Virus record (IMG/VR): IMGVR_UViG_3300024520_000120
Location: 1-47,171 of that record
DNA from: a virus
Strand: one strand, 5' to 3'
DNA: 47,171 bases
The position numbers were made by a program, and so were the translations under genes. Below are positions 715-47,171 of this stretch, one piece after another (position 1 is the first letter of the stretch; each line of letters starts with the position of its first letter). Under the pieces are notes generated by a model. The model was not told where the DNA came from. It was given only the letters and a program-made list of their open reading frames with translations, and made no database searches.

Positions 715-750
715 CTCCATTCCTCCCATCCGGGGTGTAAACGGAGGCAG

Positions 751-785
751 CGGGACTAACCGGCAAGGCTGCCGATAGAGTCCCG
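751..785 (-). promoter_or_regulatory. Structured leader hairpin
   Basis: The leader of the 472-714 gene can fold as nested stems: outer CGGGACT (751-757) with AGTCCCG (779-785), inner CGGCA (761-765) with TGCCG (770-774). It lies between the promoter at 798-826 and the ribosome site. Function unknown; it may be a transcript-protecting or regulatory element. Confidence 0.5.
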
Positions 786-797
786 CAACACAGGGTA

Positions 798-826
798 AAT
801 ATAAGACATGCGTGGCGTACTGTCAA
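798..826 (-). promoter_or_regulatory. Leftward sigma70-type promoter with spacer operator
   Basis: On the minus strand this reads TTGACA (826-821), 17 bases, TATATT (803-798). The spacer carries the shared dyad in degenerate form, ACA-TGCG-TGG (806-815). Transcription would start near 790 and run through 472-714, the RHH gene and the integrase. The -35 abuts the stop of the upstream gene. Confidence 0.8.
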
Positions 827-827
827 G

Positions 828-1145
828 CTAATTTCGCCGCGCTCTCGGGCTCGATACCCGCTTCCGGCGGAGTCGGCTTGAAGCCAGTGCGAGATCGGAC
901 TCTTCACGATCTCGCTGGCCACGCTGCTCGTCTGAGACGCGTAGCGTCGTGCAGTGGCGAGCCGGGACTGTGTGGGTCCCGTAGCCCTGCCGCTGTACGA
1001 GCACGCCCTCGGTGCTCTCGTCGAGCGACTGGATGAATCCCCACCAGCGCTTCGCAGGCAGGGTCATCCCCTGGTACGTGCGCTCGGGTTGATCCACCCG
1101 CACTCTGCATCCCGCCTGGAGCGGGTATCCCTGACAGTCTTGCAT
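828..1145 (-). CDS. Hypothetical early protein, 105 residues
   Basis: Unrecognised. The sequence has a compact amino-terminal region (QGYPLQAGCRVRVDQPERTY, then AKRWWGFIQSL) reminiscent of small beta-rich domains, and a basic arginine-rich tail (LRRKRVSSPRARRN) that could bind nucleic acid. The ATG at 1145 has GGAGG four bases upstream. It is the only gene between the promoters at 1184-1212 and 798-826, so it appears to be a single-gene unit. Function cannot be assigned. Confidence 0.7.
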   Translation of the reverse strand: MQDCQGYPLQAGCRVRVDQPERTYQGMTLPAKRWWGFIQSLDESTEGVLVQRQGYGTHTVPARHCTTLRVSDEQRGQRDREESDLALASSRLRRKRVSSPRARRN

Positions 1146-1149
1146 CCTG

Positions 1150-1173
1150 CCTCCAGCGCGGACCTCCCGCGCT
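1150..1173 (-). promoter_or_regulatory. Hairpin plus ribosome site in front of 828-1145
   Basis: AGCGCG (1155-1160) pairs with CGCGCT (1168-1173) immediately upstream of the GGAGG site. This is one member of the recurring hairpin/Shine-Dalgarno module of the early region. Confidence 0.5.
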
Positions 1174-1212: not shown

Positions 1213-1218
1213 GTTCAC

Positions 1219-1344
1219 GTTTAGACGGCTGTGCCACGCTCCGTGTCTAAACCCGCGCCCCGCAGCTCGGAGTGTAAACGTGAGTGGACCGTTTACGCGC
1301 GGCGTATAAACACGCGGCACGAAGAAAGGGCGACAGGTGTAAAC
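1219..1344. repeat. Cluster of GTNTAAAC octamers
   Basis: Five exact octamers (1219, 1245, 1272, 1304, 1337; both orientations) and one near match (GTTTACGC at 1291) fall within 126 bases between the promoter at 1184-1212 and the tRNA-Leu. No gene is seen here. This density resembles iterons or an array of protein-binding sites; which one cannot be told from sequence. Confidence 0.7.
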
Positions 1345-1358: not shown

Positions 1359-1446
1359 TGGTACCGGAGGCGGGAGTCGAACCCGCACGCCCTCACGGGC
1401 ACCCGATTTTGAGTCGGGCGTGTCTGCCAATTCCGACCACTCCGGC
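1359..1446 (-). tRNA. tRNA-Leu(CAA)
   Basis: Reading from 1446 down, the acceptor GCCGGAG pairs with CTCCGGT (one G-U pair) and a discriminator A and encoded CCA follow. The anticodon stem CCCGA/TCGGG holds the loop CTCAAAA, giving anticodon CAA (codon TTG). A type II variable arm (GCCC-GTGA-GGGC) and a T arm (GCGGG-TTCGACT-CCCGC) are present, and the D arm reads GGAATTGGCAGAC as in leucine tRNAs. It lies downstream of 1595-1840 on the same strand and is likely cut from that transcript. TTG is rare in GC-rich genes, so it may help late or AT-richer messages; it could also mark a past or present attachment site. Confidence 0.95.
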
Positions 1447-2569: not shown

Positions 2570-2585
2570 GTGTAAACGCCCCTCC

Positions 2586-2849: not shown

Positions 2850-2864
2850 GGCCGCGTTTAGACG

Positions 2865-4121
2865 CTACGCCGCTTCCTCCTCATCCTCCCGGCACTCCTC
2901 GCAATCGCCATCCTCAACGTCTCCGCTGGGATAGAAGTCTCCGCAGGTATTGCACTCGGTCGCGCAATCCGCGCAGAGATCCTCTCCGGCCTTCGTCGTC
3001 ACCAGCTCTACACGCTCGTCGCAGTGCTCGCAGGGCGGCGGCGCGCAATCCTCGCAGTATGACCGGCCCTTGCTTTCCACGTACACCTCATCATCGCTCG
3101 GATAGCTGGCGCTGCACTCCTCACAATAGAACGCGTCATCGTCCGCGCAGGCCCGGCACCATGTCTCGTCGTTTACACACTCGTAATCATCTTCCGGCTG
3201 CGCCGTCTCGCAGTGCGAGCACCAGATAGACGAATTGTCTACGCAGGATTCGCACCATATCTCATCGCCTACGCTGCGGCCTTCGTCTTCGTCGCACTGG
3301 TCTTCGCAGCGCCCGCATCTAAACGTCGGACATGCCCGAATAACCCCTTGCGTACCGGGGCTGTAGCTGCCCCTGGCGTCCACGTAGATGTAATCCTCGT
3401 GCTCCGCGCCATCGGGGCCGAGTAGACTGACCTCATACGCGTCGATATACGGCGCTACGAGCCGCTCGTCGCCCGCATCCGGCACCGGAAGCCGCAGCAA
3501 CCGGGCGCCGTTGAATGCTCCAGCCTCCGCCCGCGTGTAACCGTCATCCTGAAGCACGCGCTCCAGCCGAGCGGGGTCCCCGTAGAACCCCCTGTAGAGC
3601 TTCTTCTCCGGCCAGCAGAGACACCGCGCTTGAATATCGCCCGCGTCATTTCGGACGTAGGCGATGCCAAGGTCCCCGGCGCCGTATGCGCGCGTCGGAT
3701 GAACCCCGTTCGTATCGTACTGACTCACTTCATGCGACATGCAGGACCGCGGGCCGCTCGTATAAACGGCCTCGATTTCATCCGGCGTCAAGGCGATTTC
3801 CAGCGTCGGTGGAGCCGCCGCAGCGCCCCATGCCGCCGCCCATTCGGCGATTGCCTCGGGCGCTAGAAGCCGCGCGTAGAATTTGGTGAGGTACTTCCCC
3901 GGTCGCGTCTTCGTCTGGCGGTCAGCTTCGCCATGCTCCGCGCTGCGCGTGTAGGCCAGCTTCGCTGGCTCATCGCGCGAGACATGCGGAAAGTGCAGTC
4001 TGCGCGCCGCTGAAAACATCGGAGAATTCCAACTCGCGCTAATCCACGGCATCTCGCCCCACGGAGGCGGCTTGTAATACCCCGAGCGCAACCGCTCGCG
4101 CTGGTCGTCTTCCCATCCCAT
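2865..4121 (-). CDS. Acidic multi-zinc-ribbon phage protein, 418 residues
   Basis: The carboxyl half (from about residue 265) carries ten CxxC pairs (CGRC, CESC, CSHC, CRAC, CEEC, CEDC, CEHC, CADC, CNTC, CEEC) in a very acidic background, the pattern of tandem zinc ribbons. The amino half has PGKYLTKFYARLLAPEAIAE, a stretch I associate with uncharacterised phage proteins, then a region (AYGAGDLGIAYV...RCLCWPEKKLYRGFYG) of unknown role. Start 4121 (ATG) stands nine bases from GGGAGG; the GTG at 4130 abuts that site and is unlikely. It ends the operon from the 4772-4800 promoter. A role in binding host protein or RNA is a guess. Confidence 0.85.
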   Translation of the reverse strand: MGWEDDQRERLRSGYYKPPPWGEMPWISASWNSPMFSAARRLHFPHVSRDEPAKLAYTRSAEHGEADRQTKTRPGKYLTKFYARLLAPEAIAEWAAAWGAAAAPPTLEIALTPDEIEAVYTSGPRSCMSHEVSQYDTNGVHPTRAYGAGDLGIAYVRNDAGDIQARCLCWPEKKLYRGFYGDPARLERVLQDDGYTRAEAGAFNGARLLRLPVPDAGDERLVAPYIDAYEVSLLGPDGAEHEDYIYVDARGSYSPGTQGVIRACPTFRCGRCEDQCDEDEGRSVGDEIWCESCVDNSSIWCSHCETAQPEDDYECVNDETWCRACADDDAFYCEECSASYPSDDEVYVESKGRSYCEDCAPPPCEHCDERVELVTTKAGEDLCADCATECNTCGDFYPSGDVEDGDCEECREDEEEAA

Positions 4122-4234: not shown

Positions 4235-4254
4235 CCCCGCGTCTAAACGCGGGG
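4235..4254. other. Perfect 8-bp hairpin built on the octamer
   Basis: CCCCGCGT-CTAA-ACGCGGGG: the GTCTAAAC octamer forms the loop and the two innermost pairs. It lies in the gap after 4264-4464. A weak T-free terminator or a processing site are both possible. Confidence 0.55.
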
Positions 4255-4486: not shown

Positions 4487-4514
4487 GGGGCGGAGCGTTT
4501 ACACGCCCCGCCCC
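4487..4514. other. Hairpin upstream of gene 4264-4464
   Basis: GGGGCGG and CCGCCCC flank an inner GCGT-TTAC-ACGC with a single A-C mismatch; the loop is again the octamer. It precedes the AAGGGG ribosome site by a dozen bases. Confidence 0.55.
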
Positions 4515-4753: not shown

Positions 4754-4771
4754 ATGTGCGATTGAGACCCT

Positions 4772-4800
4772 ATTATAGTCCACCGATGGCGGACTGTCAA
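4772..4800 (-). promoter_or_regulatory. Perfect-consensus leftward promoter with spacer operator
   Basis: TTGACA (4800-4795), 17 bases, TATAAT (4777-4772): both hexamers and the spacing are exact sigma70 consensus. The spacer has CCA-CCGA-TGG (4780-4789), the same dyad as at 2829-2838. It should drive 4544-4729, 4264-4464 and 2865-4121. Confidence 0.92.
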
Positions 4801-4827: not shown

Positions 4828-4855
4828 GGCGCGGCGTGCGTTTACACGCCGCGCC
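4828..4855. terminator. Terminator-like hairpin after 4872-5108
   Basis: GGCGCGGCG (4828-4836) pairs perfectly with CGCCGCGCC (4847-4855) around a ten-base loop that contains the octamer GTTTACAC. It sits 17 bases past the stop of the 4872-5108 gene and before the 4772-4800 promoter, so it can end the upstream transcript. No T-run is visible. Confidence 0.5.
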
Positions 4856-4871: not shown

Positions 4872-5108
4872 CTATGTGACGTTCTTGACGTGACTGTTTA
4901 GACAGTCCGTCCATTCGCGCGATGGCGAGAAGAGCAGCGCGAGCCGGAGGATGTCATTCGCCTCCAGCCTATGCTGGCGCGCAGTGGCCGCGCGATCCCC
5001 GCCGCGCGATGCCTCGACCCGATCCCCGAGCCGCTGATAGTGCTCCGCGAGAAGTAGCAGCGCGTTGCACACCACCCACTCGTGCCCGTCCGGTACGTTT
5101 ACACGCAT
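4872..5108 (-). CDS. Hypothetical early protein, 78 residues
   Basis: Unrecognised; it begins MRVNVPDGHEWVVCNALLLL and has a helical middle (LAEHYQRLGDRVEASRGGDR). The ATG at 5108 overlaps the stop of 5099-5299 (TAA within the GTGTAAAC octamer at 5097-5104) and has no clear ribosome site, so translation is probably coupled to that gene. It is the last gene of the 6906-6934 operon. An octamer-based hairpin (GACTGT-TTAG-ACAGTC, 4892-4907) lies inside the coding end. Confidence 0.65.
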   Translation of the reverse strand: MRVNVPDGHEWVVCNALLLLAEHYQRLGDRVEASRGGDRAATARQHRLEANDILRLALLFSPSREWTDCLNSHVKNVT

Positions 5109-5303: not shown

Positions 5304-5326
5304 CCCTCCCGCGCGTGTAAACGCGC
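5304..5326 (-). promoter_or_regulatory. Hairpin plus ribosome site module (gene 5099-5299)
   Basis: GCGCGT-GTAA-ACGCGC (5311-5326; 6-bp stem) directly precedes GGGAGGG. The loop on the + strand is GTAA. Confidence 0.6.
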
Positions 5327-5349: not shown

Positions 5350-5378
5350 GGGTCGCGCGCCCGTTTAGACGCGCGCCC
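5350..5378. other. Hairpin between 5397-5594 and 5099-5299
   Basis: GGG-T-CGCGCG (5350-5359) pairs with CGCGCG-CCC (5370-5378) with one bulged T; the loop contains the octamer GTTTAGAC (5363-5370). Confidence 0.5.
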
Positions 5379-5662: not shown

Positions 5663-5680
5663 CCCGCGTTTACACGCGGG
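5663..5680. other. Perfect 7-bp hairpin built on the octamer
   Basis: CCCGCGT-TTAC-ACGCGGG between the 5702-5827 stop and the 5397-5594 module. Confidence 0.5.
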
Positions 5681-6058: not shown

Positions 6059-6081
6059 CCCTCCCGCGCGTTTACACGCGC
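6059..6081 (-). promoter_or_regulatory. Hairpin plus ribosome site module (gene 5824-6054)
   Basis: GCGCGT-TTAC-ACGCGC (6066-6081), the archetype of the module, abuts GGGAGGG. Confidence 0.65.
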
Positions 6082-6164: not shown

Positions 6165-6860
6165 TCAGTCCCCAGGCACGAGGGTCAGGTGCTCGCCAGT
6201 GCATTTGCACCCGACCATGCCGCGAGCGGCCTGCGTCTTGCTCATGCGCGCGATCGTCCCGCAGTCCGCCGGGCATACGTACTTGAGGCTGCGCCCGGAC
6301 TTCGGCGGACCCTTGCCCGGATCGGTCGGACCCAGCGGCCCGCCGGGGAAGATCGGGAACCCCGGACCCGAAGGCAGGCGCCCCAGCGTGGGATCGTTTA
6401 GACGCGCGTGAGGGTACTCACCCACTTCGCGTTCCAGCGCTTCCAGCGCCAGACCGATCCACGAGCCGACCGGCACATGCGTGGCCGTCGGCGGCCCCTC
6501 AAGCCCCACTTTGCGGCACACCTGCGCGAACGGCGCCTTATGCCCATGCTGGACCCCGACGAACGCATGCACCAGCTCGTGGAGCAACGTCCCGAGCACG
6601 TCATACGCGGAGTCATTCACCAGTAGGCCGGGATGGATGAAGATCTGCGCCCGGCGATCGTCGGCGCAGGACACGTCCCAGCACTGTCCGATGGCGACGC
6701 CCCGACCCTGACGGCCCTTCGGGAACCCGACCGAGACCCGGACCTCGGGGAAGCCCCCGTCCGGCTCTTCCAGCTCGCCCCATGCGTCCGCCTGTAGCAG
6801 AGCGGACAGTCCGGGGATGGCGGCCTGTAGCCACTCCTCCCGGTTTCCGTAGCGACTCAT
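6165..6860 (-). CDS. SprT-like zinc metallopeptidase
   Basis: The product (231 residues from the ATG at 6860) carries HELVH at about residues 94-98 in LLHELVHAFVGVQHGHKAPF, the HExxH zincin motif with a further histidine downstream, arranged as in SprT/SPRTN-like proteins, and a Cys-containing tail (VCPADC...GCKC) that could be the zinc ribbon usual in that family. Glu is the catalytic base and the histidines bind zinc. SprT-type proteases in eukaryotes cut proteins from DNA; the phage role is unknown, perhaps removing host proteins from DNA. The start is five to seven bases from GGGAGG; an upstream alternative in frame abuts it. First gene behind the 6906-6934 promoter. Confidence 0.85.
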   Translation of the reverse strand: MSRYGNREEWLQAAIPGLSALLQADAWGELEEPDGGFPEVRVSVGFPKGRQGRGVAIGQCWDVSCADDRRAQIFIHPGLLVNDSAYDVLGTLLHELVHAFVGVQHGHKAPFAQVCRKVGLEGPPTATHVPVGSWIGLALEALEREVGEYPHARLNDPTLGRLPSGPGFPIFPGGPLGPTDPGKGPPKSGRSLKYVCPADCGTIARMSKTQAARGMVGCKCTGEHLTLVPGD

Positions 6861-6888: not shown

Positions 6889-6905
6889 CTTTCGATTCAA
6901 AGGGG

Positions 6906-6934: not shown

Positions 6935-6988
6935 GATCTCTAACCGGCAGAGAATGAATCTTACACCTTTGTACGCCCGTCCTGCTAA

Positions 6989-7330
6989 TTAGGCAGGCTC
7001 ATTCTGGCCGTTAGAGCGGGAGGGTGAGACGTTTACACCCTCGGCCTCACCCACGCCCCGCTTAGCCCTGGGGGCATTAGCCCACGGACGCATGGGCTTC
7101 GCCGGAACCACGTTTAGACCCGGCACCAAATCGACTGGAGACACCTGTAGACCCGCGGCTAAACGCACGAGAGTCCTGAGCTTCAAGCCGTACACATCGC
7201 CGTGCTCCAGCGCCCGTACCGTCTCCGGCGACGTCCGGCACAGCGAGCACACGTCATGCACCGATAGACCCCGAGCCTCACGAATCCGTGCCATCGGCCA
7301 CAGCGGTCGAGAACGCGGCGCCCGGCTCAA
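6989..7330 (-). CDS. HTH XRE-type transcriptional regulator
   Basis: Residues about 13-60 (MARIREARGLSVHDVCSLCR then TSPETVRALEHGDVYGLKLR, then TLVRLAAGLQVSPVDLV) match the helix-turn-helix of the Cro/C1 (XRE) family, with a 50-residue unstructured basic tail. The likely start is TTG at 7330: it forms TTGA with the stop of the upstream gene and has GGAGG six bases upstream; the internal ATG has none. Together with the neighbour it forms the left arm of the switch region. It may be one of two phage repressors. Its tail codes through two octamers (7031, 7112). Confidence 0.75.
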   Translation of the reverse strand: MSRAPRSRPLWPMARIREARGLSVHDVCSLCRTSPETVRALEHGDVYGLKLRTLVRLAAGLQVSPVDLVPGLNVVPAKPMRPWANAPRAKRGVGEAEGVNVSPSRSNGQNEPA

Positions 7331-7698
7331 CTCTCGCCTCCGTCCCGACCTTCACCGTCAGGGAGGCAAGCGTCGTCTAAACGGATCGCACCGCGCGTAG
7401 CATAGTGCTTCGCCACCAGATCCATCCCAGGCGCACCCAACTCCACGGAACGTCTACCAAAGTACGCGAGACGCTCGTGCAAGATGATCCAGCCCACCGT
7501 CCCCGTCGGCACACCCCAACGCATCCCCAGCTCCTCCATCACCCGCATTTCCCAAGGCCGCAACATCAACCGGATCGGGTGCTTACGCTTCCAGTCATCC
7601 TTCGGCCAGTGATGCAGACTGCGACCACGCTTCAGCAGTGGCGGCCACGCATCGGCAGGCCAACGGTCCTTCGGGAAAGTCAACCGCGGTTTACGCAT
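7327..7698 (-). CDS. Hypothetical protein, 123 residues
   Basis: Unrecognised; it begins MRKPRLTFPKDRWPADAWPP and is basic and Trp-rich, with GMRWGVPTGTVGWIILHERL as a possible helix-turn-helix. The ATG at 7698 has no ribosome site; a TACACT sequence stands seven bases before it, so the message could be leaderless, but no good -35 is visible. Its stop overlaps the next gene's start as TTGA, so the two are one operon at the left side of the divergent region. Confidence 0.6.
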   Translation of the reverse strand: MRKPRLTFPKDRWPADAWPPLLKRGRSLHHWPKDDWKRKHPIRLMLRPWEMRVMEELGMRWGVPTGTVGWIILHERLAYFGRRSVELGAPGMDLVAKHYATRGAIRLDDACLPDGEGRDGGES

Positions 7699-8133
7699 GG
7701 GTGGGAGTGTAACGGGCGCGAGGGAACATGCAGGTATAGACGGGCGCCGCCTGACGGACCGGATCGGAGGCGAACGGTATCGCTTCCCCACCAATCCGAC
7801 ACCAGAACGGGCTCGGAGTCCGTATAAACACGTCAGAATCGGCCCGGAGGCAGGGCCGCCTCAGCGGAGAAAGCACGCAGACGCACAACAGCGGGGGGGG
7901 CACCCCCCGAATGGGTCCCACAACGACGGCGGGGGGGCATGATAGGACCCACACCTACATGCGCCGTGTGCCACACTCATGGTGGTCCGAGGCCACGCAG
8001 TCCGTGCGGAGACCGTTCGGCGATCGGCGTGGGCATGGGAAGGGTGGTTGCTGTCGGGGAAGGGGCCCTGGTACCCGGCAGCAGGTAGGACCGTTCGGGT
8101 GTCGCGCCCCACCCGTGGTGCTACCCTGGTTCT
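7699..8133. other. Divergent intergenic region without a gene
   Basis: No convincing coding frame is seen on either strand between the leftward 7327-7698 gene and the tRNA-Phe. The stretch holds one octamer (7822), a G8/C6 hairpin (CGGGGGG...CCCCCCG, 7892-7909) and a GGGTCC...GGACCC inverted repeat around 7914-7950. It is the natural place for the rightward early promoter and switch operators, but I could not find a clear promoter. Confidence 0.5.
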
Positions 8134-8817: not shown

Positions 8818-8888
8818 CGTTTATACGTGTTCTGGAAATCGGGTTCTACACCCCATTCGTTTGGGGCGTTAGCCACACAGGAGGTTCG

Positions 8889-13099: not shown

Positions 13100-13148
13100 C
13101 CGTCCAGACAGCGCTACTACGGGAACGTCTAAACGGTGCAGCCAGTGT

Positions 13149-22705: not shown

Positions 22706-23037
22706 TGGTCATCAACGGAGTGCCGCTCAAGATCGCAGCGGATTCGGTCACGATCGCCGTGACTACCATCGCCAACACGCCCATCCCCTTCAACTCCGCG
22801 GGACAGCGGCCGAAGTACATCATGCTCGTGAACGCGACGGGCGAGGTGCTACGCATTCGCCCGAACCTGAATGGGACGGAGACCAGCGCGACGCTCTCGG
22901 CGATTCGCCCGAACGTACCACTGCTGCTCGATGTGATGGGGTTTACACATCTGCGCACGGAGCAGACCGCGTCAGGCGGCTCGCTGTTCATGACGCCGCT
23001 CGAAAACGGCGGTGGTGACGAAGGCACCTTCTCCTGA
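22705..23037 (+). CDS. Beta-rich virion protein, 110 residues
   Basis: MVINGVPLKIAADSVTIAVT, then YIMLVNATGEVLRIRPNLNG and VMGFTHLRTEQTASGG: a beta-rich protein of the kind found as decoration or tail-spike base units. Its coding sequence includes one octamer (22941-22948). TGATG overlaps on both sides. Confidence 0.65.
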   Translation: MVINGVPLKIAADSVTIAVTTIANTPIPFNSAGQRPKYIMLVNATGEVLRIRPNLNGTETSATLSAIRPNVPLLLDVMGFTHLRTEQTASGGSLFMTPLENGGGDEGTFS

Positions 23038-24035: not shown

Positions 24036-25522
24036 GGGTCACCTTCGGTGAATGGCTGCCGGACGCGCCCGAGCTGGCCAACCCTGGCGTGACGGTCGCA
24101 CGCGGCGTGGTCCCGATCTCGGTCGGATACGCGCCGATGAACGCCTGGGCCGATGGCGGGCACAGCGCGATCGACGCACGGGCGCGCGGCTCGATCGCGA
24201 TGGTGGACGACGCGGGTAACCCGGTGAACGTCGTGGGGAACGCGACGAAGCTCTACAAGCTCGACGGCACGGGGCTGACGGACGTCTCGATCGCCGGGGG
24301 GTACCACGTCACAGACGAGGCGCGCTGGGAGTTTGTGCGCTGGCGGAACAACATCATCGCAGTCAACCCGAATGACGACTCGCAGTATTTCGATCTCCAG
24401 ACGAGCACCGCATTCGCTGTGCTCGCGACGGATGTGCCGCGAGCACGGCATGCAGGCGTGGTCCGCAACTTCGTGGTGCTCGGGAACGTCTACACCGTGA
24501 CCGACGGCCTGCTGACCGACACGGTGGCGTGGTGCGCCAACAACAACCCGTTCTCCTGGCCGATCCCGGGCTCCGATCTGGCGATCTCGGTTCTCTCGGG
24601 CCAGCAGGCCCTCGCAGGTGGCGGGGGCTGGGTGCAGTCCGTCGTGAACGATGGCGCCGAGGTGGGCGGCATCTTTCAGGAGCATTCGATCTGGCGCATG
24701 GACTTCGAGGGCGGCGACACGGTCTGGCGATTCACCCGGGTCGAGCCCGCGAAGGGCCTGCTGATCCCGGGGCTCGCGATCCCGCGCGGACGGCAGGTGC
24801 TCTACTGCGACGAAGACGGCTTCTACCTGTGGGACTACACCGCGTCGAAGCCCGTTGGCGAGGAACGGATCAACCGGACCTTCCTGGCGGATCTGGACAG
24901 TGCGTACCTCGACCGCGTGAGCTGGGCGCAGGACCCGGACTCGCCCAACGCCTTCATCCTGTACCCGGGATCGGGCAACACGGGCGGCACGCCGAACAAG
25001 GCGCTGGTCTACAACTGGGTGTTGAACCGCTTTAGCGAGCTGGAGTTCACCGCCGGGCTGGAGCTGATGACGCGCTATGTCGCACCCGGCGTGCACCTCG
25101 ACACGACACCGGACGATGACGTGGACGGTGCGGGCTTCGCGAGCTTCGACCAGCGCCAGAGCGCCTACGGCGCGGCGACGCTCGCAGCCTGGGACGGGTC
25201 CGAGAAGCTCGGCACGTTCTCGGGCTCGGGGGTTGCGGCCACACTGGAGACAGGGGACGTGCAGCTCGATCCCCAGCGGCGTGCCCGCGTGTCCCATGTG
25301 CGCCCGCTGGTCAAAGGCGCGGAGGCCACGGTCCAGATCGCCGCTCTGTCGAAGTCGACCTCGACCGTCAACTACTCGGCGGTGTCGCGTCAGAATCCCG
25401 ACGGCAAGTGTCCGGTGCGCTCGGACGGGCGCTATCACCGGATTCGTGTAAACATCCCCTCTGGTGGTTTCACTGATGCCACCGGGGTCGATCTCCAGGC
25501 GACGCTCACTGGGACGAGATAG
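24032..25522 (+). CDS. Tail nozzle-like protein, 496 residues
   Basis: Beta-rich throughout with blocks typical of podophage nozzle or tail tubular B proteins: GIFQEHSIWRMDFEGGDTVW, then KGLLIPGLAIPRGRQVLYCD and EDGFYLWDYTASKPVGEERI. Position after the adaptor, length near 500 and beta-propeller-like repeats support this. The ATG overlaps the adaptor stop (ATGA). One octamer lies near its end (25446). Confidence 0.75.
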   Translation: MRVTFGEWLPDAPELANPGVTVARGVVPISVGYAPMNAWADGGHSAIDARARGSIAMVDDAGNPVNVVGNATKLYKLDGTGLTDVSIAGGYHVTDEARWEFVRWRNNIIAVNPNDDSQYFDLQTSTAFAVLATDVPRARHAGVVRNFVVLGNVYTVTDGLLTDTVAWCANNNPFSWPIPGSDLAISVLSGQQALAGGGGWVQSVVNDGAEVGGIFQEHSIWRMDFEGGDTVWRFTRVEPAKGLLIPGLAIPRGRQVLYCDEDGFYLWDYTASKPVGEERINRTFLADLDSAYLDRVSWAQDPDSPNAFILYPGSGNTGGTPNKALVYNWVLNRFSELEFTAGLELMTRYVAPGVHLDTTPDDDVDGAGFASFDQRQSAYGAATLAAWDGSEKLGTFSGSGVAATLETGDVQLDPQRRARVSHVRPLVKGAEATVQIAALSKSTSTVNYSAVSRQNPDGKCPVRSDGRYHRIRVNIPSGGFTDATGVDLQATLTGTR

Positions 25523-31300: not shown

Positions 31301-32604
31301 CGATGGTGGCGGCCGAGGGATACCGGGCGCACATGGGCGGGGCGGCCGAGACGAAACTCGGACAGATCCACGAAGCCATCTCGAACTCGGACGTCATGCT
31401 GCTGGGACGTGGCTCGCGCAGTCGGCAGGCAATCGAGAAGGCGCGCGATCTCGGTTTCGAGCTGAATCAGCTCGTGGACAACCACTTCCGCAGCCGCATC
31501 TACCTGAAGGTCGGCCGCAAAGAGGCCCGGAACCAGCTCATGAAGGATACGGGCCGGGCTGTTCTCGACGACCGGCAAGTGCTCGCCAAGATGGAGCGGT
31601 TCCTCGACGAACCGGCCACGGTCGATGCGCTGCTGAAGAAGGTCGACGACGTCCACATCAACTTCAACAACATGCACCCGTTCGAGCGGCGGTGGATTCG
31701 ACGTGCGATTCCGTTCTGGAATTGGTACCGCGAGATCGCACGCGTCACGCTCAAGATGCCGTTCGAGAGTCCGATGCGGGCGCAGATCATCCAGAAGCTC
31801 GGTGCGCTCGGGCAGATGAGCGACGACATGGAAGTGCGTCGGCATCTCGGATTCCCGAAGGAGCACCTCGACAAGTTCTTGCAGGGCGAGATCTTCGCCG
31901 GATTGAACAACGACGGCACCGCCACCTTCATGAGCCCTCGCGGTCTAAACGTGTTCTACGGAGTGGCGATGCCGGAGACCTTCCTGGCGCTGCACCCGCT
32001 GATCCAGTTCGGCCTGAGCGAGCAGTACGCGGGCAGGAACTTCGGCCGGTGGGGCACCTACGTCCCGTTCCGCAACGCGATGGAGACCCAGGCATACGAG
32101 CAGGACTCGATCACCGGAGAGGTGGTGACGCGTTCCGGCCCGGCGGCCGGGATCTTCCATCGCCTGGGTCGGATCTTCCCGCAGTTGAAGGTGATGGAAG
32201 ACGTGGCGCAGCTCGGGACAGAGGGCCAGATCACGCAGCGCTTCAGCGACCGTTCGCCGCTGCCCAACATCATGCGCCAGCTCACAGGCGGCAAGACGAA
32301 GCAGACCGCGCGCTTCAACTTCGTGGATGACGAGTACCAGCCCCGGTTCTATCGCGACCCGAAGCAGATGGTGGGCGCCCAGCTCGGGCTGCACATCATG
32401 CGCGTGCGGCTCGCCGAGATCTTGGAGCAGAACGCCAAGGCGCGGAACTCGGGCACCGCCGTGATCTCGAAGCAGGCGTTCATCATGGATGACGAGGCCC
32501 GCGAGCTGATGCAGAAGATCGTCGAGGCCGGGGGCAAGGAGTACGAGGGCCTCGCAACCGGACGCCCGCCCCGGCCGGTCAGCCCCACACGGAGATTCCG
32601 CTAA
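28327..32604 (+). CDS. Giant virion-associated ejection-type protein, 1425 residues
   Basis: The largest gene. A disordered amino end (to about residue 130) is followed by long helical parts and hydrophobic stretches (LYRALDATLIAAVPSLLLRG near 415; PRWYVNNIVGGLVLGTTAGL near 920) that could insert in membrane, and an aromatic cluster FERRWIRRAIPFWNWYREIA near 1120. Size, position between neck and fibre genes, and the membrane-like segments fit the large ejection proteins that build the trans-envelope channel in podophages. No lytic transglycosylase motif was found. Confidence 0.7.
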   Translation: MPGGPPITREELEQAMRSLGMVEGGERAPEMREAPSFLEEGDVDLSPESVRASLASAGAPAFKRTPNRIGQVTQQMHEEAELRRATGQEHPEFPPEPDLDTLPPGTQPNLFGQAIGQMGRDASQAVGLEAGPRREYETPDFPISPIQKFAFMNFGVQPQKLQQPPEGLLPDIELDPEMKELFRDADDLVKRKEFLTGISPVLKGNFGTHAEFLRQYNKSLSPDLVQSYPEIRRLEQSDNPDERRLAALMRSKLNWATAINAKDNLFEFSQIPGFMARLPYDLSWMLKEDGVMMLKRMIGWETLEDRRESMILNVPKGVAGEEFDTEDQVRIKRPEWMKLPLEDRQRLLALGAHPAGPEDVYSKYWQLWRAMRSDYGFVEEGEIPEGATFSNLQLFGSEVGWSSDQFAARAREYPLYRALDATLIAAVPSLLLRGTATTARFMGNLSARAGRATRVRPEPRFNRELRRIEGVGTGPIERAFETLERGLVKTSLKTDAASDYMKVTKLAGRGFGVVRKGLEHTEIGRDMYRAMDSWYLAKKLVNTSKDLHFAQRRKAEVQIYDALRHLTDDEMQLMVPILEGRAQPIKDLLSPQMRDALDTTRGLIMRRQDELLDAGFLTAQNIEARRWAPLVVSRTGKLIPYRNWTPLDLARENTRLIKYNQRMRAMGYEKEMHPLYMGVKEWEGELKAVQSMVDDVTRDYHHLPQFTELDPVYFPRFTGHDANEVRRWFMLGTGVRRPGKPPIVRHFSGLELLRNVEVKDLQAQLYQMSAQSLRIVNADKLIRELVNSPFTEELPLSAISGRPIQSALKDGYSTYAPDGFLKFYRNDSDLSREVADRLGMMGGDIEQAIAGGLQHVFGAPEMRAGMIGVKRAEKVYQIPNSMKAVIDQQFSAPHPMMKLIMDKPLDAWRTSVLAFSPRWYVNNIVGGLVLGTTAGLNPATLVADIGRAGKAAAVRSRNAATGRQARRADLPPPSGLTAQEVRVLPERLESETMVAAEGYRAHMGGAAETKLGQIHEAISNSDVMLLGRGSRSRQAIEKARDLGFELNQLVDNHFRSRIYLKVGRKEARNQLMKDTGRAVLDDRQVLAKMERFLDEPATVDALLKKVDDVHINFNNMHPFERRWIRRAIPFWNWYREIARVTLKMPFESPMRAQIIQKLGALGQMSDDMEVRRHLGFPKEHLDKFLQGEIFAGLNNDGTATFMSPRGLNVFYGVAMPETFLALHPLIQFGLSEQYAGRNFGRWGTYVPFRNAMETQAYEQDSITGEVVTRSGPAAGIFHRLGRIFPQLKVMEDVAQLGTEGQITQRFSDRSPLPNIMRQLTGGKTKQTARFNFVDDEYQPRFYRDPKQMVGAQLGLHIMRVRLAEILEQNAKARNSGTAVISKQAFIMDDEARELMQKIVEAGGKEYEGLATGRPPRPVSPTRRFR

Positions 32605-39757: not shown

Positions 39758-39773
39758 GAGCGTCTAAACGTGA

Positions 39774-41271: not shown

Positions 41272-42131
41272 CAGAACGACTCCTCCGCGTCTTCGTACTC
41301 GACCTCGCGCGACATGCGCCAGGGCGGCAGTCCTGCAATCTCCAGCTCGGTCGGGTAGTTCGACCACTCGCCCGAGTCCACGCAGACTTTGTAGAGCTGC
41401 ATGAACTCGTCCGCCCGCCGCCGCCCGAGTCGGAGCGCGCCCTCGGCGATCTCGTAGACCCGGCAGCCATACGGTGCGTCCTTCTCGAACACGATCCAGA
41501 ACCAGCGCCGCTCCATCGGGGCGAGCACGTCGAGCCCGTTCATGTAGAAGCCCGCCTGGATGTGGTAGTCGAAGGTGCTGACGGCCCGCTCCCAAGCATC
41601 CCGGCGTGCGTCACTGGCGGTGGACTTCACGTCCACGGCCACTGTCCAGCCCGCGTACTCGGTGAAAGCGTCGAGCCGGGCCTTACACCGGAGCCCGGTG
41701 TGCGGGCAGTCCCAGGTGATCGACAGCTCTTTGCGCGCCGCCTGCGTCAAGAGTTTAGACGCGAGCGGGTGCCGATAGACCTGCTCCTGAATCTCGTGGC
41801 ACCCCTCCCACTCTGAGGGGCGGAGCACCGCGCGGCCCTTCCGGCCCTCGTCAAACTCTGCCCACGTCTCGGCGTCGCGCTTCAACCGACGCTGGTTCTC
41901 GAAGGGCGAGAGGATGTAGCGCTTCTCGAACTCCTCGGGCTCCAGTACCGCCGTGTGGATCGCGGAGCCATAGGCTTTCGCGGCGGTCTCCTCCGACGGG
42001 TTGAGCATCTGCTCCCGCGCGTGGGCCGGGGAGCGGTCGAAGAGCTTGAGGACAGTGGACGACATGGCGTTCCAGGCGTGGTAATCCGCCTCCAGTACGC
42101 CCTCGTGGATGCCGGGATTTGGCGCTATCAT
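41271..42131 (-). CDS. RecE-like (PD-D/ExK) exonuclease
   Basis: PGIHEGVLEADYHAWNAMSS, SPAHAREQML, YGSAIHTAVLEPEEFEKRYI, then CKARLDAFTEYAGWTVAVDV followed by KSTASDARRDAWERAVSTFD (D-x-K core) and DYHIQAGFYMNGL (QA/H motif) match DUF3799-type RecE/exonuclease VIII nucleases. The enzyme degrades one strand from DNA ends for RecT. 286 residues is a compact form. The ATG at 42131 lies eight bases past the -10, so the message is probably leaderless; no ribosome site is present. Confidence 0.85.
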   Translation of the reverse strand: MIAPNPGIHEGVLEADYHAWNAMSSTVLKLFDRSPAHAREQMLNPSEETAAKAYGSAIHTAVLEPEEFEKRYILSPFENQRRLKRDAETWAEFDEGRKGRAVLRPSEWEGCHEIQEQVYRHPLASKLLTQAARKELSITWDCPHTGLRCKARLDAFTEYAGWTVAVDVKSTASDARRDAWERAVSTFDYHIQAGFYMNGLDVLAPMERRWFWIVFEKDAPYGCRVYEIAEGALRLGRRRADEFMQLYKVCVDSGEWSNYPTELEIAGLPPWRMSREVEYEDAEESF

Positions 42132-42168: not shown

Positions 42169-42188
42169 CATTCCGCTAGGGTATAAAC

Positions 42189-42458
42189 ATGAGTAAAACG
42201 CCGTTTGAAACAGCACGGGAAAAGCGCGGGTGGACGTACTACGCCGCTTCGCAGCGCATGGAAGGGGTATCGGAGCAGTCGCTCAAGAATTTGGAGCGCG
42301 GGGTGACGCCACCGGATCGGGTGCAGGTCCGCACAGCAGTCGAGATCGTGAAGACGCTGTGGCCGGACGTCAGCCTCGACGACTTCTATCCGGATACGCC
42401 GCTACGCTTTGCCGCCCGCGACACGAACGCGCTCCGTCGGCTCCGCTACAGCACTTAG
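42189..42458 (+). CDS. Small HTH protein, candidate repressor
   Basis: 89 residues: TPFETAREKRGWTYYAASQR followed by MEGVSEQSLKNLERGVTPPD reads as a helix-turn-helix of the XRE class (EQSLKNLE as recognition helix), followed by a small helical tail. The ATG at 42189 follows AGGG and the octamer GTATAAAC. It is the only gene on its strand in the leftward block and diverges from the operator-bearing exonuclease promoter, the arrangement of a phage repressor. Its 3' end overlaps the converging RuvC-like gene by 57 bases. Confidence 0.75.
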   Translation: MSKTPFETAREKRGWTYYAASQRMEGVSEQSLKNLERGVTPPDRVQVRTAVEIVKTLWPDVSLDDFYPDTPLRFAARDTNALRRLRYST

Positions 42459-42926: not shown

Positions 42927-43054
42927 CGGAGCACAAGCTCCCGACGCTGCTCTTTCCCGCAGGTATGACAGCGAGTCACCATCACCATTGGCTCCAGCTC
43001 GATCACGCTCTTCGTGACGTGCCCGATCAGGCGGCACACTTCCTCGGGCGTCAT
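42923..43054 (-). CDS. Small Cys-containing protein, 43 residues
   Basis: The frame MTPEEVCRLIGHVTKSVIEL ... VTRCHTCGKEQRRELVLR has ATGA overlaps at both ends (with 43051-43359 and the RuvC-like gene), which supports it despite its size. CHTCG may bind zinc with the earlier Cys. Unknown role. Confidence 0.65.
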   Translation of the reverse strand: MTPEEVCRLIGHVTKSVIELEPMVMVTRCHTCGKEQRRELVLR

Positions 43055-43359
43055 TCCGGGTCGGGCTCGTAGGGGCCCTCGTCGGGTTCGGCGGGCTCAC
43101 CCTGGAAGAGCGAGAGCTGCCCGTTGGCGAGCGACAGCTTGTACTCCTTCGGCTCCAGCGGCACCCGCTCGCGCGGCTTGAACTCGGCCTTGTAGCCGAC
43201 GATCTCGCCCTTCCGCTTGATGATCTTGAACTGCACCGTGACGCTGAAAGACGCCTCGGCCTGCCCCGCGTCCAGCGCCTCGGCGATGCGCGGCAGCGAG
43301 CCCGACAGATTGACACCGAAGTCACCCGACAGCCGGGTGACCAGCTCTCTCTGATCCAC
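43051..43359 (-). CDS. Hypothetical replication-cluster protein, 102 residues
   Basis: VDQRELVTRLSGDFGVNLSG then a beta-rich core (SFSVTVQFKIIKRKGEIVGY) and an acidic tail ending EPDEGPYEPDPE. An acidic tail after a small beta-rich domain is the plan of phage single-strand binding proteins, but this family is not recognised. GTG at 43359 has a G6 site with the octamer GTATAAAC in the spacing, like the HTH gene. Confidence 0.65.
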   Translation of the reverse strand: MDQRELVTRLSGDFGVNLSGSLPRIAEALDAGQAEASFSVTVQFKIIKRKGEIVGYKAEFKPRERVPLEPKEYKLSLANGQLSLFQGEPAEPDEGPYEPDPE

Positions 43360-43361
43360 GT

Positions 43362-44213
43362 TTATACCCCCCTCTGTGTTGGAAACAACGGTAGCACTAT
43401 ATCGGGGTCCTCGACCGGGTCCACCTTCTCCACCAGCCCAGGGGTGTCGAAGCGGCACTGCGCCCAGTCTCGCTCCAGCTCTCCCAGCTCACCTCCGGGC
43501 GACTCCCGGGACTCCAGCGTCATCTTCACCTTGACCGGGTCCCGCGTGCGCCGCAGGTACATCAGGCAGCCCGCGGCGTGCTCCACGTCGAGGCCGATCA
43601 TGCCGCCGCGCTGGTTCGTCTCGGAGAGCACCATGACGCCGATGCGCCCCGCGCTCTCCTCGCAGATCGTCTGCGCGATCCGGCAGATGTACGACAGCTC
43701 CCGCAGGTAGTCGCCGCCCGCCGACCGCGCCAGCCGGTTGATCGAGTCGACCACGATCAGCACGCGATCGGCGTCGCGGGGTGTAAACGCCATCACGTTC
43801 TGGAGTATCGCCGCGATGTTGTGCCCGTGGCGGAATCGCATGCCCCGCCACCGCTCTACGAACCAGTCCGGCGGGTCGCCTGCGGGCACCGGCCCGAGCA
43901 CGCGTGCCGCCATGCCCGCGATCAGCTCCGGCGTGTTCTCGCCGTAGGCGTAGTGTGTAAACCACCCGTGCCTCGCAGCCTCGATACTGCTGCGCACGGC
44001 GATGATCGACTTGCCGAGCTTCTTCTTCCCCGAGATGGCGGTGAAGCCATACGCCCCGCCGCTCATGTCATCCCAGGCGCGCACGCCGGACGGCCAGCGC
44101 GGCGACTCCTGCGGAATGTCCTGCGTCACGAGCCGCAGGTCGAGTTCGTCGAAGTGTGCGGAACCTTTCGAGGATGCTGTCGCCATCTGCATGATCTGGT
44201 GCAGCGTATTCAC
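43362..44213 (-). CDS. RecA-fold (DnaB/RadA-like) ATPase
   Basis: Walker A GKKKLGKS at 62-69 after MSGGAYGFTAIS, and Walker B RVLIVVDSINRL (Asp near 156), then GVMVLSETNQRGGMIGLDVE (the sensor/L2-like region) show a RecA-type core as in DnaB-family helicases or RadA. At 283 residues it lacks the DnaB amino domain. It may act as a helicase or recombination motor. The stop TAA lies in the GTATAAAC octamer (43360-43367). Confidence 0.8.
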   Translation of the reverse strand: MNTLHQIMQMATASSKGSAHFDELDLRLVTQDIPQESPRWPSGVRAWDDMSGGAYGFTAISGKKKLGKSIIAVRSSIEAARHGWFTHYAYGENTPELIAGMAARVLGPVPAGDPPDWFVERWRGMRFRHGHNIAAILQNVMAFTPRDADRVLIVVDSINRLARSAGGDYLRELSYICRIAQTICEESAGRIGVMVLSETNQRGGMIGLDVEHAAGCLMYLRRTRDPVKVKMTLESRESPGGELGELERDWAQCRFDTPGLVEKVDPVEDPDIVLPLFPTQRGV

Positions 44214-44919: not shown

Positions 44920-44967
44920 GAAATCCGTGTTGCATCCCCTCACCTGGGCCAGCTTACGCCGTCCGGC

Positions 44968-45240
44968 TCAGCTCTGCAAGTCTAAACGCGCCTCCAGTGC
45001 TCCGAGTGTAATCGTGTCGCCTTCGCCCCGGTAGCGCACCACCATCGTGACCGAGACGCGGTTCCCGGCACGGGACTGGCCCGGCCGGGCGTTGCGCGCC
45101 ATCGTGAGCTTCTGGAAGCGGTACGCAGCGGGCAGGAGTTCTTCGACCTTCTGCCCCTGGTCGAACCCTTCCCTGACACTCGGAGAATGCCAGCGCAGCA
45201 CGAAGCCGTCGTCACTCTCCCGGTCTGCGAAGACCCTCAT
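44968..45240 (-). CDS. Hypothetical protein, 90 residues
   Basis: MRVFADRESDDGFVLRWHSP ... EELLPAAYRFQKLTMARNAR ... VSVTMVVRYRGEGDTITLGA. A small alpha/beta protein, not recognised. The ATG overlaps the stop of the Cys-rich gene (ATGA). An octamer overlaps its last codons (44980). It ends at the attenuator-like element. Confidence 0.65.
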   Translation of the reverse strand: MRVFADRESDDGFVLRWHSPSVREGFDQGQKVEELLPAAYRFQKLTMARNARPGQSRAGNRVSVTMVVRYRGEGDTITLGALEARLDLQS

Positions 45241-45446
45241 GAGGCACAGCGCCCCCACACGTCTGCATCCCCTTTCGCGCAGGTGCAGCCGATCGGGCAC
45301 TCCGAGCTGAATGCGCACGCCTGCGAGCCGCACGTCGCGCACTCGGCAGGGATGGCCCCGAGCGACAGCCCGATCGCTGCGCCGAAGACCAGGGCGGCGA
45401 ACGCCGCCAGGATCACGTTCCGGAGTCGGTGGGTCCGGTGGGTCAT
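45237..45446 (-). CDS. Secreted/membrane-anchored Cys-rich miniprotein, 69 residues
   Basis: A basic start (MTHRTHRLRN) and hydrophobic segment VILAAFAALVFGAAIGLSLG form a signal peptide or anchor. The outer part has seven Cys in 32 residues (36, 39, 44, 50, 54, 56, 67), including CPIGCTCAKG, the density of a cystine-knot or small disulfide protein. GAGGAG lies eight bases before the ATG. Target unknown. Confidence 0.7.
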   Translation of the reverse strand: MTHRTHRLRNVILAAFAALVFGAAIGLSLGAIPAECATCGSQACAFSSECPIGCTCAKGDADVWGRCAS

Positions 45447-45613
45447 GGCGTCTTCTCCTCTTCCAGCACCTCGACACAGTAGTCGATCATGCCCATCAGG
45501 AGATCCTGCATCGTCTGCTCCTGCTGGTCCGCCAGGGCCCATAGCCGCGCGTACAGCTCCTCGGAGACCCTGACCTTCACCCCCACGCGCTTCGGCATCT
45601 TGTGCCGCCCCAT
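45443..45613 (-). CDS. Ribbon-helix-helix-like protein, 56 residues
   Basis: MPKRVGVKVRVSEELYARLW then ALADQQEQTMQDLLMGMIDY: a beta-strand followed by two helices as in CopG/Arc proteins. The ATG at 45613 forms TAATG with the stop of the upstream start-less frame, indicating coupling; an internal ATG at 45598 is an alternative. Its stop overlaps the Cys-rich gene. Confidence 0.7.
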   Translation of the reverse strand: MGRHKMPKRVGVKVRVSEELYARLWALADQQEQTMQDLLMGMIDYCVEVLEEEKTP

Positions 45614-46011
45614 TATCTGGACCGCTTTCGGTCGAGCGCCCGGAGCATGTCCCGGGTGCGCGTCCACACCGGGGAGCGGCGGCGCTCCTCGGCCGTGGAG
45701 TCACTGCGAATGCCGTGGTCCGTGATCGTGGGCGGATCGGGCGTGACCTGCTGCTCTGAGCGGGCTTTCCGCATCATCGCAGCGTGGGCCGACCGCTCTT
45801 CCGCGGTCGTGTTCTGCCAGCGCGCCTTCCCGCCCCGGACGGACGCTTCGTGCTTCTGCTCCGCGGTGAACGCGGCGACGAGCGGGAGGGCCGCTACACC
45901 CTCCCGCTTCGCACGCGCCTTCTCGCGGTCTTCCGCCGTGAAGACGTAGCGGCGGCGCTGCGCCTTCGCCTTCGACTGTTTCGGGGCCCGCTGCTTAGGC
46001 CGAGCCGGGAA
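45613..46011 (-). CDS. Frame without start codon, possible +1 frameshift extension
   Basis: A frame of over 125 codons ends at TAA 45615-45613. It reads KQRAPKQSKAKAQRRRYVFT, then AFTAEQKHEASVRGGKARWQ and NTTAEERSAHAAMMRKARSE, basic repeats like those in NUMOD/HNH-associated tails. No ATG, GTG or TTG opens it before MMRK. It overlaps 45995-46528 and would be entered by a +1 shift at TTT CCC G (46012-46006), three codons before that gene's stop, giving one protein of about 300 residues. The alternatives are a sequencing indel or a broken gene. Confidence 0.6.
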   Translation of the reverse strand, partial: FPARPKQRAPKQSKAKAQRRRYVFTAEDREKARAKREGVAALPLVAAFTAEQKHEASVRGGKARWQNTTAEERSAHAAMMRKARSEQQVTPDPPTITDHGIRSDSTAEERRRSPVWTRTRDMLRALDRKRSR

Positions 46012-46528
46012 ACATCGCCTCGAAAGCGGCCTCCTTGGCCGCCTCTTCGTCGAAGCCCACGTAGACCTCGGCCATGTTGCCGTTGCGGTTGCGCCGCGTC
46101 ACCACGTACACGAGCCGCTGCTCGGTCGTGATGTGCAGCTCGCCCGTCGACGGCTTCACCGCGGCGTCGGTCGGAATCGACGTGGCCCGCCGCACCGTCT
46201 TGCGGGGGCGCTTGTTGTTGTCGCCCTGTCCCGGCCCGCCCTTGAGGTTCGCCTTGCGCATGTCCGTGTGGTCGCCGTTCACGACCCGGACGCGCGCACC
46301 GCGCACCGACAGCGACCAGCCGAGCACGAACTGCGGCATGGACTGCTGCGTCTTGCCCGACGACGTGCGCTTCTCGGAGCGCGTCAGGAGCCGGTACGGC
46401 GCCTTCTTCGTGATCGGGTTCCAGTGCCAGTCGTGGGCCTGGAGCCGCTCCAGATCGTCTGTGTCGACCTTGACGGGGTGGATGCGGCCCGACCCCTTCT
46501 CGGTGGCTGCGGTTGTTGCTATGGTCAT
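45995..46528 (-). CDS. AP2/HNH-like DNA-binding protein, 177 residues
   Basis: The opening IHPVKVDTDDLERLQAHDWH followed by WNPITKKAPYRLLTR, then RVRVVNGDHTDMRKANLKGG and late VYVGFDEEAAKEAAFEAMF, resembles phage AP2/HNH homing-endonuclease-like proteins; NGDHTDMRKANL is the second half of an HNH motif but the first His is not clear, so nuclease activity is doubtful. The ATG at 46528 overlaps the integrase stop. It has its own promoter (46566-46593). Confidence 0.65.
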   Translation of the reverse strand: MTIATTAATEKGSGRIHPVKVDTDDLERLQAHDWHWNPITKKAPYRLLTRSEKRTSSGKTQQSMPQFVLGWSLSVRGARVRVVNGDHTDMRKANLKGGPGQGDNNKRPRKTVRRATSIPTDAAVKPSTGELHITTEQRLVYVVTRRNRNGNMAEVYVGFDEEAAKEAAFEAMFPGSA

Positions 46529-47171
46529 AGCGCTGTATCTCCCGAGCAGTAGTGCTCTTCTTGGGATGTTACGCCACCTGTGGTCGGTGTCAAGCTAAAC
46601 CGTCTCGCGGCCGTTGCCTGGATAACCTCGGTGGCTCCAATGGTACGCAGGTACTTCGTGGTGGTGCTCAGGCTCGTATGCCCGAGCGCCAGCATCAGCA
46701 GGTAGGGGTCTTTCGTCTCCGAGTAGAACTCCACCGCGAAGGTGTGTCTAAACGCATGCGGGTGTACCCGCCGCGCCAGACCAGCCCGCTTGGCGAGCTT
46801 TCCGCACAAGCGCCTGACGTGATTCGCCTGCACGCGTGCCCCCGTCCGCGTCGTGAACAGGTACTCCCCTGCACACTTCTGCGACAGAAGCGGTCGTAGG
46901 TGCCGCGCAGCCCCGTAGTCCAGGGCCACCTCCCTCGGAAGGGCCCCGCGCCGAAACCCCTTCGGAGTCTCGACGCGGAGCACCAGAGCCCCGCCGTGCG
47001 GTCGCACGTCTTGAAACCGCAGCGACAGGGCCTCCGAAACCCGCAGCCCTGCCCGCCACAGAATGACGAGCAGGGCGCGATCCCGCGCCGCCGTGCCCCC
47101 TCGGCACGACGACACGAGGACCGCCGCGTCCTCTTGCGAGAGCGCGTGGGGGGGGAAGCGTCTAATCGGAG
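46525..47171 (-). CDS. int: Tyrosine recombinase (integrase), catalytic part
   Basis: Catalytic motifs of tyrosine recombinases are complete: AGLRVSEAL (Arg I), ETPKGFRR (Lys), HPHAFRHTFA (His-x-x-Arg) and LGHTSLSTTTKYL (His and nucleophile Tyr). It makes strand exchange at attachment sites for integration and excision. The frame is open through 47171 and continues at the window start to ATG 145. Total 219 residues, with no arm-binding domain, close to small XerC/phage minimal integrases. Stop overlaps the next gene (ATGA). Confidence 0.92.
   Translation of the reverse strand, partial: PIRRFPPHALSQEDAAVLVSSCRGGTAARDRALLVILWRAGLRVSEALSLRFQDVRPHGGALVLRVETPKGFRRGALPREVALDYGAARHLRPLLSQKCAGEYLFTTRTGARVQANHVRRLCGKLAKRAGLARRVHPHAFRHTFAVEFYSETKDPYLLMLALGHTSLSTTTKYLRTIGATEVIQATAARRFSLTPTTGGVTSQEEHYCSGDTAL
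46566..46593 (-). promoter_or_regulatory. Leftward promoter inside the integrase gene
   Basis: TTGACA (46593-46588), 16 bases, TAACAT (46571-46566), with CCA-CCTG-TGG (46574-46583) in the spacer. It lies within the last codons of the integrase and should drive 45995-46528 and genes beyond. Confidence 0.75.
47040..47171. repeat. Terminal overlap, right copy
   Basis: Matches 1-132 with a single difference (A at 47045). Removing one copy gives a unit of about 47,039 bases. Confidence 0.9.

Follow-up and report, generated by a model that had tools for sequence, protein, structure and literature searches.

A dispersed octamer in a metagenomic phage genome and a SprT-like zinc protein as its proposed reader

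The 47,171-nucleotide IMG/VR virus record IMGVR_UViG_3300024520_000120 (positions 1 to 47,171, hereafter the window) is the genome of a metagenomic phage in which the octamer GTNTAAAC recurs far more often than expected. An earlier note, made from the sequence alone, had drawn attention to this word, and it raises two questions: which protein reads it, and to what end? Our analyses suggest that GTNTAAAC is probably the DNA target of a phage SprT-like zinc protein, which would act as an autoregulated, genome-dispersed transcription regulator. Neither this partner protein nor the wider phage family in which it occurs figured in the earlier note; both were found here.

The octamer in the window and its conservation

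An exact count of GTVTAAAC gave 37 copies between positions 735 and 46753, 20 on the plus strand and 17 on the minus strand. This is the number obtained earlier by hand, and the tally for the free base at position 3 (G 16, C 15, A 6, T 0) was likewise confirmed. Base composition alone predicts about 1.5 copies, so the proposed excess of about 25-fold stands at 24- to 25-fold on that basis. It is about 16-fold against a third-order Markov model, which predicts 2.2 copies (0.32 + 0.76 + 1.16); a similar count from such a model had been named as grounds for dropping the idea. Among all 8-mers of the window, GTCTAAAC (z 16) is the most over-represented and GTGTAAAC (z 14) comes second, and the reversed pattern, used as a control, has 0 matches. 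Variants with one fixed position changed occur at near-background frequency, and the octamer is therefore a sharp word. Outside it, a C before and a G after are favored (gcGTVTAAACGc), with nothing else conserved beyond 1-2 bp.

The sites are also strongly regional, more so than was first described. Positions 1-132 repeat 47040-47171 at 99.2% identity, and with this terminal direct overlap the window represents a whole genome, circular or circularly permuted, that measures about 47,039 bp. Because the genome is circular, the two site-rich ends form one contiguous leftward arm, which makes up 34% of the genome and holds 33 (25 + 8) of the 37 sites (P = 6e-12).

Sites were found in gaps and within genes, as the earlier note had reported, and also in palindromic flanks; the note had attributed such positions to selection on DNA or RNA overriding coding. 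The DNA part of that claim is supported by an independent group of phages with the same word (the G27 type). At 73-81% nucleotide identity, 17 of 20 aligned sites are kept, versus 29% for comparable control 8-mers, and the changes among kept sites are at the free base or are strand flips between GTCTAAAC and GTTTAGAC. The RNA part found no support. A GNRA-like loop (GUAA) was rejected, since C at the free position is equally common and both strands are used about equally; the strand-symmetric GTTTAAAC, used by many phages, also counts against an RNA role.

Linkage of the octamer to a SprT-like gene

A scan of IMG/VR for octamer clusters brought up several phages dense in the word. Among them are the G27 group, with 53 sites over 41.6 kb and a predominance of GTCTAAAC, and the phage G36, with 38 sites over 38.9 kb, nearly all GTGTAAAC; neither has GTTTAAAC. 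When open reading frames (ORFs) from these two and the window were compared all-versus-all, the SprT-like protein was the single family common to all three. The gene is present in 14 of 14 enriched genomes representing four or more unrelated phage kinds. The next true family, DNA polymerase I, reaches 6 of 14, two larger clusters in the family list being antisense shadows of sprT and not real families.

The association holds in both directions. Scanning IMG/VR for clusters of three octamers gave 120 loci with GTTTA[ACG]AC triples among the matches listed, a pattern that took in GTTTAAAC and left out GTTTATAC. SprT is encoded within about 15 kb or less at 28 of these 120 listed loci, versus 0 of 93 control loci chosen for a terminase, portal or RecT gene (P = 3e-8). 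In the reverse direction, the top 8-mer is GTGTAAAC or GTTTAAAC in 11 of 15 named phages chosen solely by a SprT homologue. For GTGTAAAC these are Arthrobacter phage Reedo (28 sites), Microbacterium phages Caron (17) and Zeta1847 (22), Streptomyces phage Marky (35) and Bacteriophage 4A (13), with 0.3-1.3 expected. For GTTTAAAC they are Dinoroseobacter phage R5C (17), Methylophilales phage Venkman (34), Acinetobacter phage Alexa (8), Burkholderia phage Mica (7), Enterobacter phage Arya (7) and Pseudomonas phage Persinger (4). Phage ep3 is a twelfth with the octamer, at a weaker excess (4 sites), and the other three (Bordetella FP1, Pseudomonas Epa5 and Microbacterium Eden) have SprT and 0 sites. 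Powerpuff, of Arthrobacter cluster AZ, carries GTGTAAAC 27 times, in one case 44 bp ahead of sprT. The base preferred at position 3 follows lineage: GTCTAAAC in G27-type phages, GTGTAAAC in Arthrobacter AZ, Microbacterium EH and Streptomyces phages, and the palindromic GTTTAAAC in many proteobacterial phages.

The earlier note had held that octamer-less relatives with aligned genes would speak against a function. This is literally the case for 20 distant structural relatives in IMG/VR, found by terminase, portal or RecT, most with a terminase 44-54% identical to the window's: none is enriched in GTVTAAAC or GTTTAAAC. They also lack sprT (no phrog_6361, the family that the window protein matches at E = 2e-35), so this result points to a partner protein and not against function.

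Sequence comparison further indicates which part of the protein matters. The window protein scores 21.3 bits against the Pfam SprT-like profile (PF10263), below the cut-off of 25.6. It is alignable with homologues annotated as SprT-like proteases, and the catalytic HExxH motif is present as HELVH. Seven residues are the same in all 19 carriers that entered the model: R7, E8, H151, R190, C196, R205 and C218 (window numbering). They belong to an N-terminal motif, a PH pair and a C-terminal ribbon, mostly of the form Q.TR.LK..C..C....R.S/T. In the site-less FP1, Epa5 and Eden the arginines of TR and R.S/T are lost, and in FP1 and Epa5 the cysteines as well. HExxH is missing in the G27 group and at seven further loci (L104, L109, L164, L176, L178, L188 and L223), where the ribbon arginines and the sites are retained. 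The wider family in bacterial genomes (66 loci) behaves alike. All five loci with a Q.TR ribbon, four of them from Arthrobacter relatives, have GTGTAAAC in their flanks (3-8 versus 0.2-0.4 expected). Of the 61 without it, 58 are unenriched (P = 3e-4) and 0 have a site upstream of the gene, the other three being Limnohabitans-type loci with a mild GTTTAAAC excess. Judging by this pattern, the sites need the ribbon and not the protease.

The sites also favor the gene's own upstream region. Of 15 genomes, 11 carry a site in the 150 bp that precede sprT, versus 1.0 expected (P = 2e-11); when one genome is taken per clade, 5 of 9 do (P = 4e-4). Such a site, often at a distance of 16-133 bp, occurs even where the phage has no more than 4-8 in total. 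In at least four phages (ep3, Arya, Mica and Alexa) it starts, as judged by eye, 6-9 bases past a -10-like box and 23-28 bp before the start codon, which would likely place it at the transcription start. Elsewhere, 12 of 28 sites in Reedo and 8 of 19 in Caron are wholly intergenic, versus an intergenic share of about 9% of each genome; most are 1-80 bp ahead of a start codon, and several others coincide with the final codons of genes. Of the six strongest predicted σ70 promoters in the window, all leftward, five have a site no more than about 80 bp away, including two exactly at -45.5 (P = 0.01).

Three further repeats were noted during these comparisons. Tandem arrays of five GTCTAAAC copies with 13-44 bp spacing occur near the ends of two otherwise unenriched phage contigs of 100 kb and 31 kb (L124, 3916-4013; L144, 11030-11127), and no SprT was detected in either stretch. 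Caron (L233) and Zeta1847 (L278-L280) have a second enriched word, AAAGGCCC, with 13 and 19 copies versus 0.5-0.7 expected. The ribbon-less Epa5 (L254-L257) has 57 copies of CCCTGGGC versus 9.7 expected, perhaps another site system.

A proposed regulator, its rivals and related systems

Based on these observations, we propose that the near-palindromic octamer is read by the C-terminal zinc ribbon, which has an invariant arginine (in most members that of TR in Q.TR.LK), a second arginine in R.S/T and cysteine ligands, and that the base allowed at position 3 is set per phage lineage. The protein would repress sprT itself through an operator at or close to the start of the gene, and would control or roadblock transcription at promoters, at gene junctions and inside genes, in the window phage mostly in the early/replication arm. 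It may block initiation, elongation or both, and activation from the -45 sites of the window is among the possibilities. In temperate carriers, such as the window phage and the Arthrobacter AZ phages, it would be the best candidate repressor for lysogeny and homoimmunity. Direct binding, repression and the lysogeny role are what we infer from the patterns described above.

Several observations weigh against this proposal. The AlphaFold2 model of the window protein is of moderate quality (predicted local distance difference test score 75.6), and a Foldseek search of it against the PDB gave no significant match, the best being selecase with IrrE lower in the list. By-eye inspection of the alignment revealed no simple ribbon residue that explains the position-3 preference (T, G or C). 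None of the window's sites falls in the 150 bp ahead of its own sprT; coding regions contain many sites, as do late genes in other phages; and two XRE regulators are also encoded in the window. Finally, R5C, with its 17 sites, is described as lytic (PMC5454422). Lysogeny therefore cannot be the general role, and in R5C the role must differ, for example transcription timing.

Those XRE regulators are the natural starting point for an alternative that we consider unlikely: another DNA-binding protein, such as an XRE repressor too diverged or too small for BLAST linking, would bind GTNTAAAC, and the SprT-like protein would be its anti-repressor or protease partner. Arthrobacter and Microbacterium phages do have a 'DNA binding protein' gene adjoining or near sprT, and HExxH metallopeptidases that cleave repressors are established, ImmA and IrrE acting on ImmR and DdrO. 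However, no second family is common to the 14 enriched genomes, the catalytic motif is lost in several site-bearing lineages, loss of sites accompanies loss of the ribbon and not of the protease motif, and sites occupy sprT's own promoter region. In the ImmA/ImmR and IrrE/DdrO systems, too, an HExxH zinc protein is tied to mobile-element or stress gene control, but there a separate helix-turn-helix (HTH) repressor is cleaved, whereas here no second protein is shared and catalysis seems dispensable.

Somewhat less probable still is a role of the octamers in replication, segregation, packaging or genome organization, in which case the SprT-like protein would bind DNA in a structural capacity and would not regulate transcription. 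This would suit the many R5C sites in apparent coding regions, the position of sprT beside replication genes in AZ/EH phages and the concentration of window sites in the replication/early arm, but not the intergenic excess at gene starts or the operator-like positions at sprT and other promoters. A word imposed by the host, through restriction-modification, Chi/KOPS-like functions or uptake, could explain a sharp 8-bp word on both strands. We regard it as very improbable because carriers infect Actinobacteria and alpha-, beta- and gammaproteobacteria, phages of the same or similar hosts without sprT (Quhwah, Andrew, Peas, Trine and Apricot) have 0 sites, and position 3 varies between phages. 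The chance that composition, accident or recent repeat amplification produced the pattern is negligible, these being ruled out by the Markov excess, the lack of conserved flanks and the recurrence in unrelated phages.

Among known systems, the closest parallel to the proposed regulator is the stoperators of L5 and TipsytheTRex (cluster A mycobacteriophages). In both cases tens of short, near-invariant sites are spread over a temperate phage, at promoters, in gene gaps and in some genes, with one phage protein and homoimmunity. The L5 repressor, a monomeric two-domain HTH protein, recognizes asymmetric 13-mers (PMC9283540). In the L5 system the sites keep a single orientation with respect to transcription, and the repressor, once bound, stops initiation and elongation. 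Here, in contrast, the site is an 8-bp palindrome or near-palindrome used in both orientations (about equally in the window, with a 20:7 bias in AZ phages), the candidate reader is SprT-like and at least one carrier is described as lytic. No HTH immunity repressor of the L5 gp71 family was found to be shared: the SprT-like protein alone is common to all carriers, and the window's XRE protein (6989-7330) has no detectable phage relatives. The octamer system probably works like the mycobacteriophage stoperators but is unrelated to them.

The SprT, SPRTN and Wss1 metalloproteases share detectable homology with the proposed reader, HExxH in many members and a C-terminal zinc-binding subdomain. They differ in that the window protein falls below the family cut-off and several site-bearing homologues have no HExxH. 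The loss of this motif in carriers argues that the octamers do not need DNA-protein crosslink proteolysis. In the literature searched, neither the conserved Arg/Cys ribbon nor a link to a specific octamer is described for SprT, and searches that combined these octamers with phage, or SprT with repressor, gave no relevant result.

The same gene-octamer pair occurs in Arthrobacter AZ and Microbacterium EH phages, for which the published study reports temperate growth and homoimmunity although identifiable repressors are lacking (PMC8758107). Powerpuff forms stable homoimmune lysogens without an identifiable repressor (PMC8758107), and the text of that study on AZ phages was searched for a motif or repeat, with none found. 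For some well-studied phages, the lysogeny repressor that is missing may be this SprT-like protein. A wider generalization, which we offer tentatively and would place a little short of an even chance, is that a metalloprotease-derived zinc-ribbon family serves as sequence-specific, genome-wide regulators in temperate and at least one lytic-described phage of Actinobacteria and Proteobacteria. In this generalization position 3 of GTNTAAAC would separate immunity groups, the family would include the missing AZ/EH repressor and some lineages would lack protease activity.

An unexplained word of one metagenomic phage has in this way become a testable gene-site pair across many phages, and the octamer offers a simple sequence marker for grouping them. 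If the proposal is true, the common but enigmatic phage gene 'SprT-like protease' would gain a function, a new DNA-binding zinc ribbon would be predicted with its target specified to the base, and AZ and EH phages without a known repressor would have a candidate for keeping lysogeny and immunity.

Coordinates and other features of the phage genome

The rightward block (8.9-39.75 kb) encodes terminase, portal (phrog_1216), major head protein and other structural genes. The leftward arm encodes a RecT-like annealing protein, exonuclease VIII, a Holliday resolvase, a tyrosine integrase, two XRE-type regulators, the SprT-like protein and many small genes. Gene calls came from a simple in-house caller, which missed genes in the leftward arm. 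Sites and the genes discussed are listed in Table 1.

Table 1. Octamer sites and selected genes of the window
Feature	Position	Strand	Context
sprT-like gene	6165..6860	-	231 aa; HELVH; C-terminal ribbon R190...C196...R205...C218; predicted reader of GTNTAAAC
XRE/Cro-CI-type regulator gene	6989..7330	-	rival reader of sites
Second small XRE-type ORF	42189..42458	+	rival reader of sites
Tyrosine integrase gene	46525..47115	-	
GTGTAAAC	735..742	+	5' leader of gene 472-714, ~52 bp downstream of predicted start
GTCTAAAC	1219..1226	-	at -45 of promoter TTGACA-17-TATCTT
GTCTAAAC	1245..1252	+	cluster upstream of promoter that has site 1219..1226 at -45
GTGTAAAC	1272..1279	+	cluster with 1245..1252
GTATAAAC	1304..1311	+	cluster with 1245..1252
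GTGTAAAC	1337..1344	+	cluster with 1245..1252, adjoins tRNA-Leu
GTGTAAAC	2570..2577	+	
GTCTAAAC	2856..2863	-	at -45 of promoter TTGACA-17-TATCTT
GTGTAAAC	3171..3178	-	within ORF 2865-4121
GTATAAAC	3760..3767	+	within ORF 2865-4121
GTCTAAAC	4241..4248	+	palindromic arms
GTGTAAAC	4497..4504	-	palindromic arms
GTGTAAAC	4840..4847	-	-78 of promoter TTGACA-17-TATAAT
GTCTAAAC	4896..4903	-	
GTGTAAAC	5097..5104	-	3' end of gene 5099-5299
GTGTAAAC	5315..5322	+	directly upstream of ribosome site, gene 5099-5299
GTCTAAAC	5363..5370	-	downstream of gene 5397-5594
GTGTAAAC	5668..5675	-	palindromic arms
GTGTAAAC	6070..6077	-	directly upstream of ribosome site, gene 5824-6042
GTCTAAAC	6396..6403	-	within sprT-like gene
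GTGTAAAC	7031..7038	-	within XRE gene 6989-7330
GTCTAAAC	7112..7119	-	within XRE gene 6989-7330
GTCTAAAC	7375..7382	+	
GTATAAAC	7822..7829	+	
GTATAAAC	8819..8826	-	upstream of rightward genes
GTCTAAAC	13127..13134	+	between rightward genes
GTGTAAAC	22941..22948	-	in rightward gene
GTGTAAAC	25446..25453	+	in rightward gene
GTCTAAAC	31943..31950	+	in rightward gene
GTCTAAAC	39762..39769	+	convergent gap, rightward versus leftward blocks
GTCTAAAC	41753..41760	-	within exonuclease VIII gene
GTATAAAC	42181..42188	+	-51 of leftward promoter TTGACG-17-TATCAT; abuts ATG of HTH ORF 42189-42458
GTATAAAC	43360..43367	-	start of gene 43051-43359
GTGTAAAC	43781..43788	+	within gene 43362-44213
GTGTAAAC	43955..43962	+	within gene 43362-44213
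GTCTAAAC	44980..44987	+	within gene 44968-45258
GTCTAAAC	46746..46753	+	within integrase gene

No close DNA relative of the window was found among public phages by megablast and blastn of segments, nor did exonuclease and RecT queries retrieve one. IMG/VR has just one close relative, an identical fragment recovered from a different sample and so of no comparative value.

The tyrosine integrase marks the window phage as probably temperate. Its ORF encodes only 196 aa and the family profile is matched from position 73 onward; the N-terminal portion that binds arm sites is therefore absent or separately encoded. The XRE gene in the sprT neighborhood has no detectable phage or PDB relatives. The second XRE-type ORF opposes the leftward operon and faces the exonuclease promoter, with its ATG directly after the site at 42181, an arrangement that looks like a Cro/CI switch. 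A second, imperfect dyad lies in the -35/-10 spacer of three leftward promoters (CCGCCATCGGTGG at 2820-2850 and 4765-4800, CCGCCATCCGTGG at 6905-6940) and is a candidate operator for one XRE regulator, separate from the octamer. Two tRNA genes, Leu-CAA (1359-1446, minus strand) and Phe-GAA (8134-8209, plus strand), flank the site-rich leftward segment.

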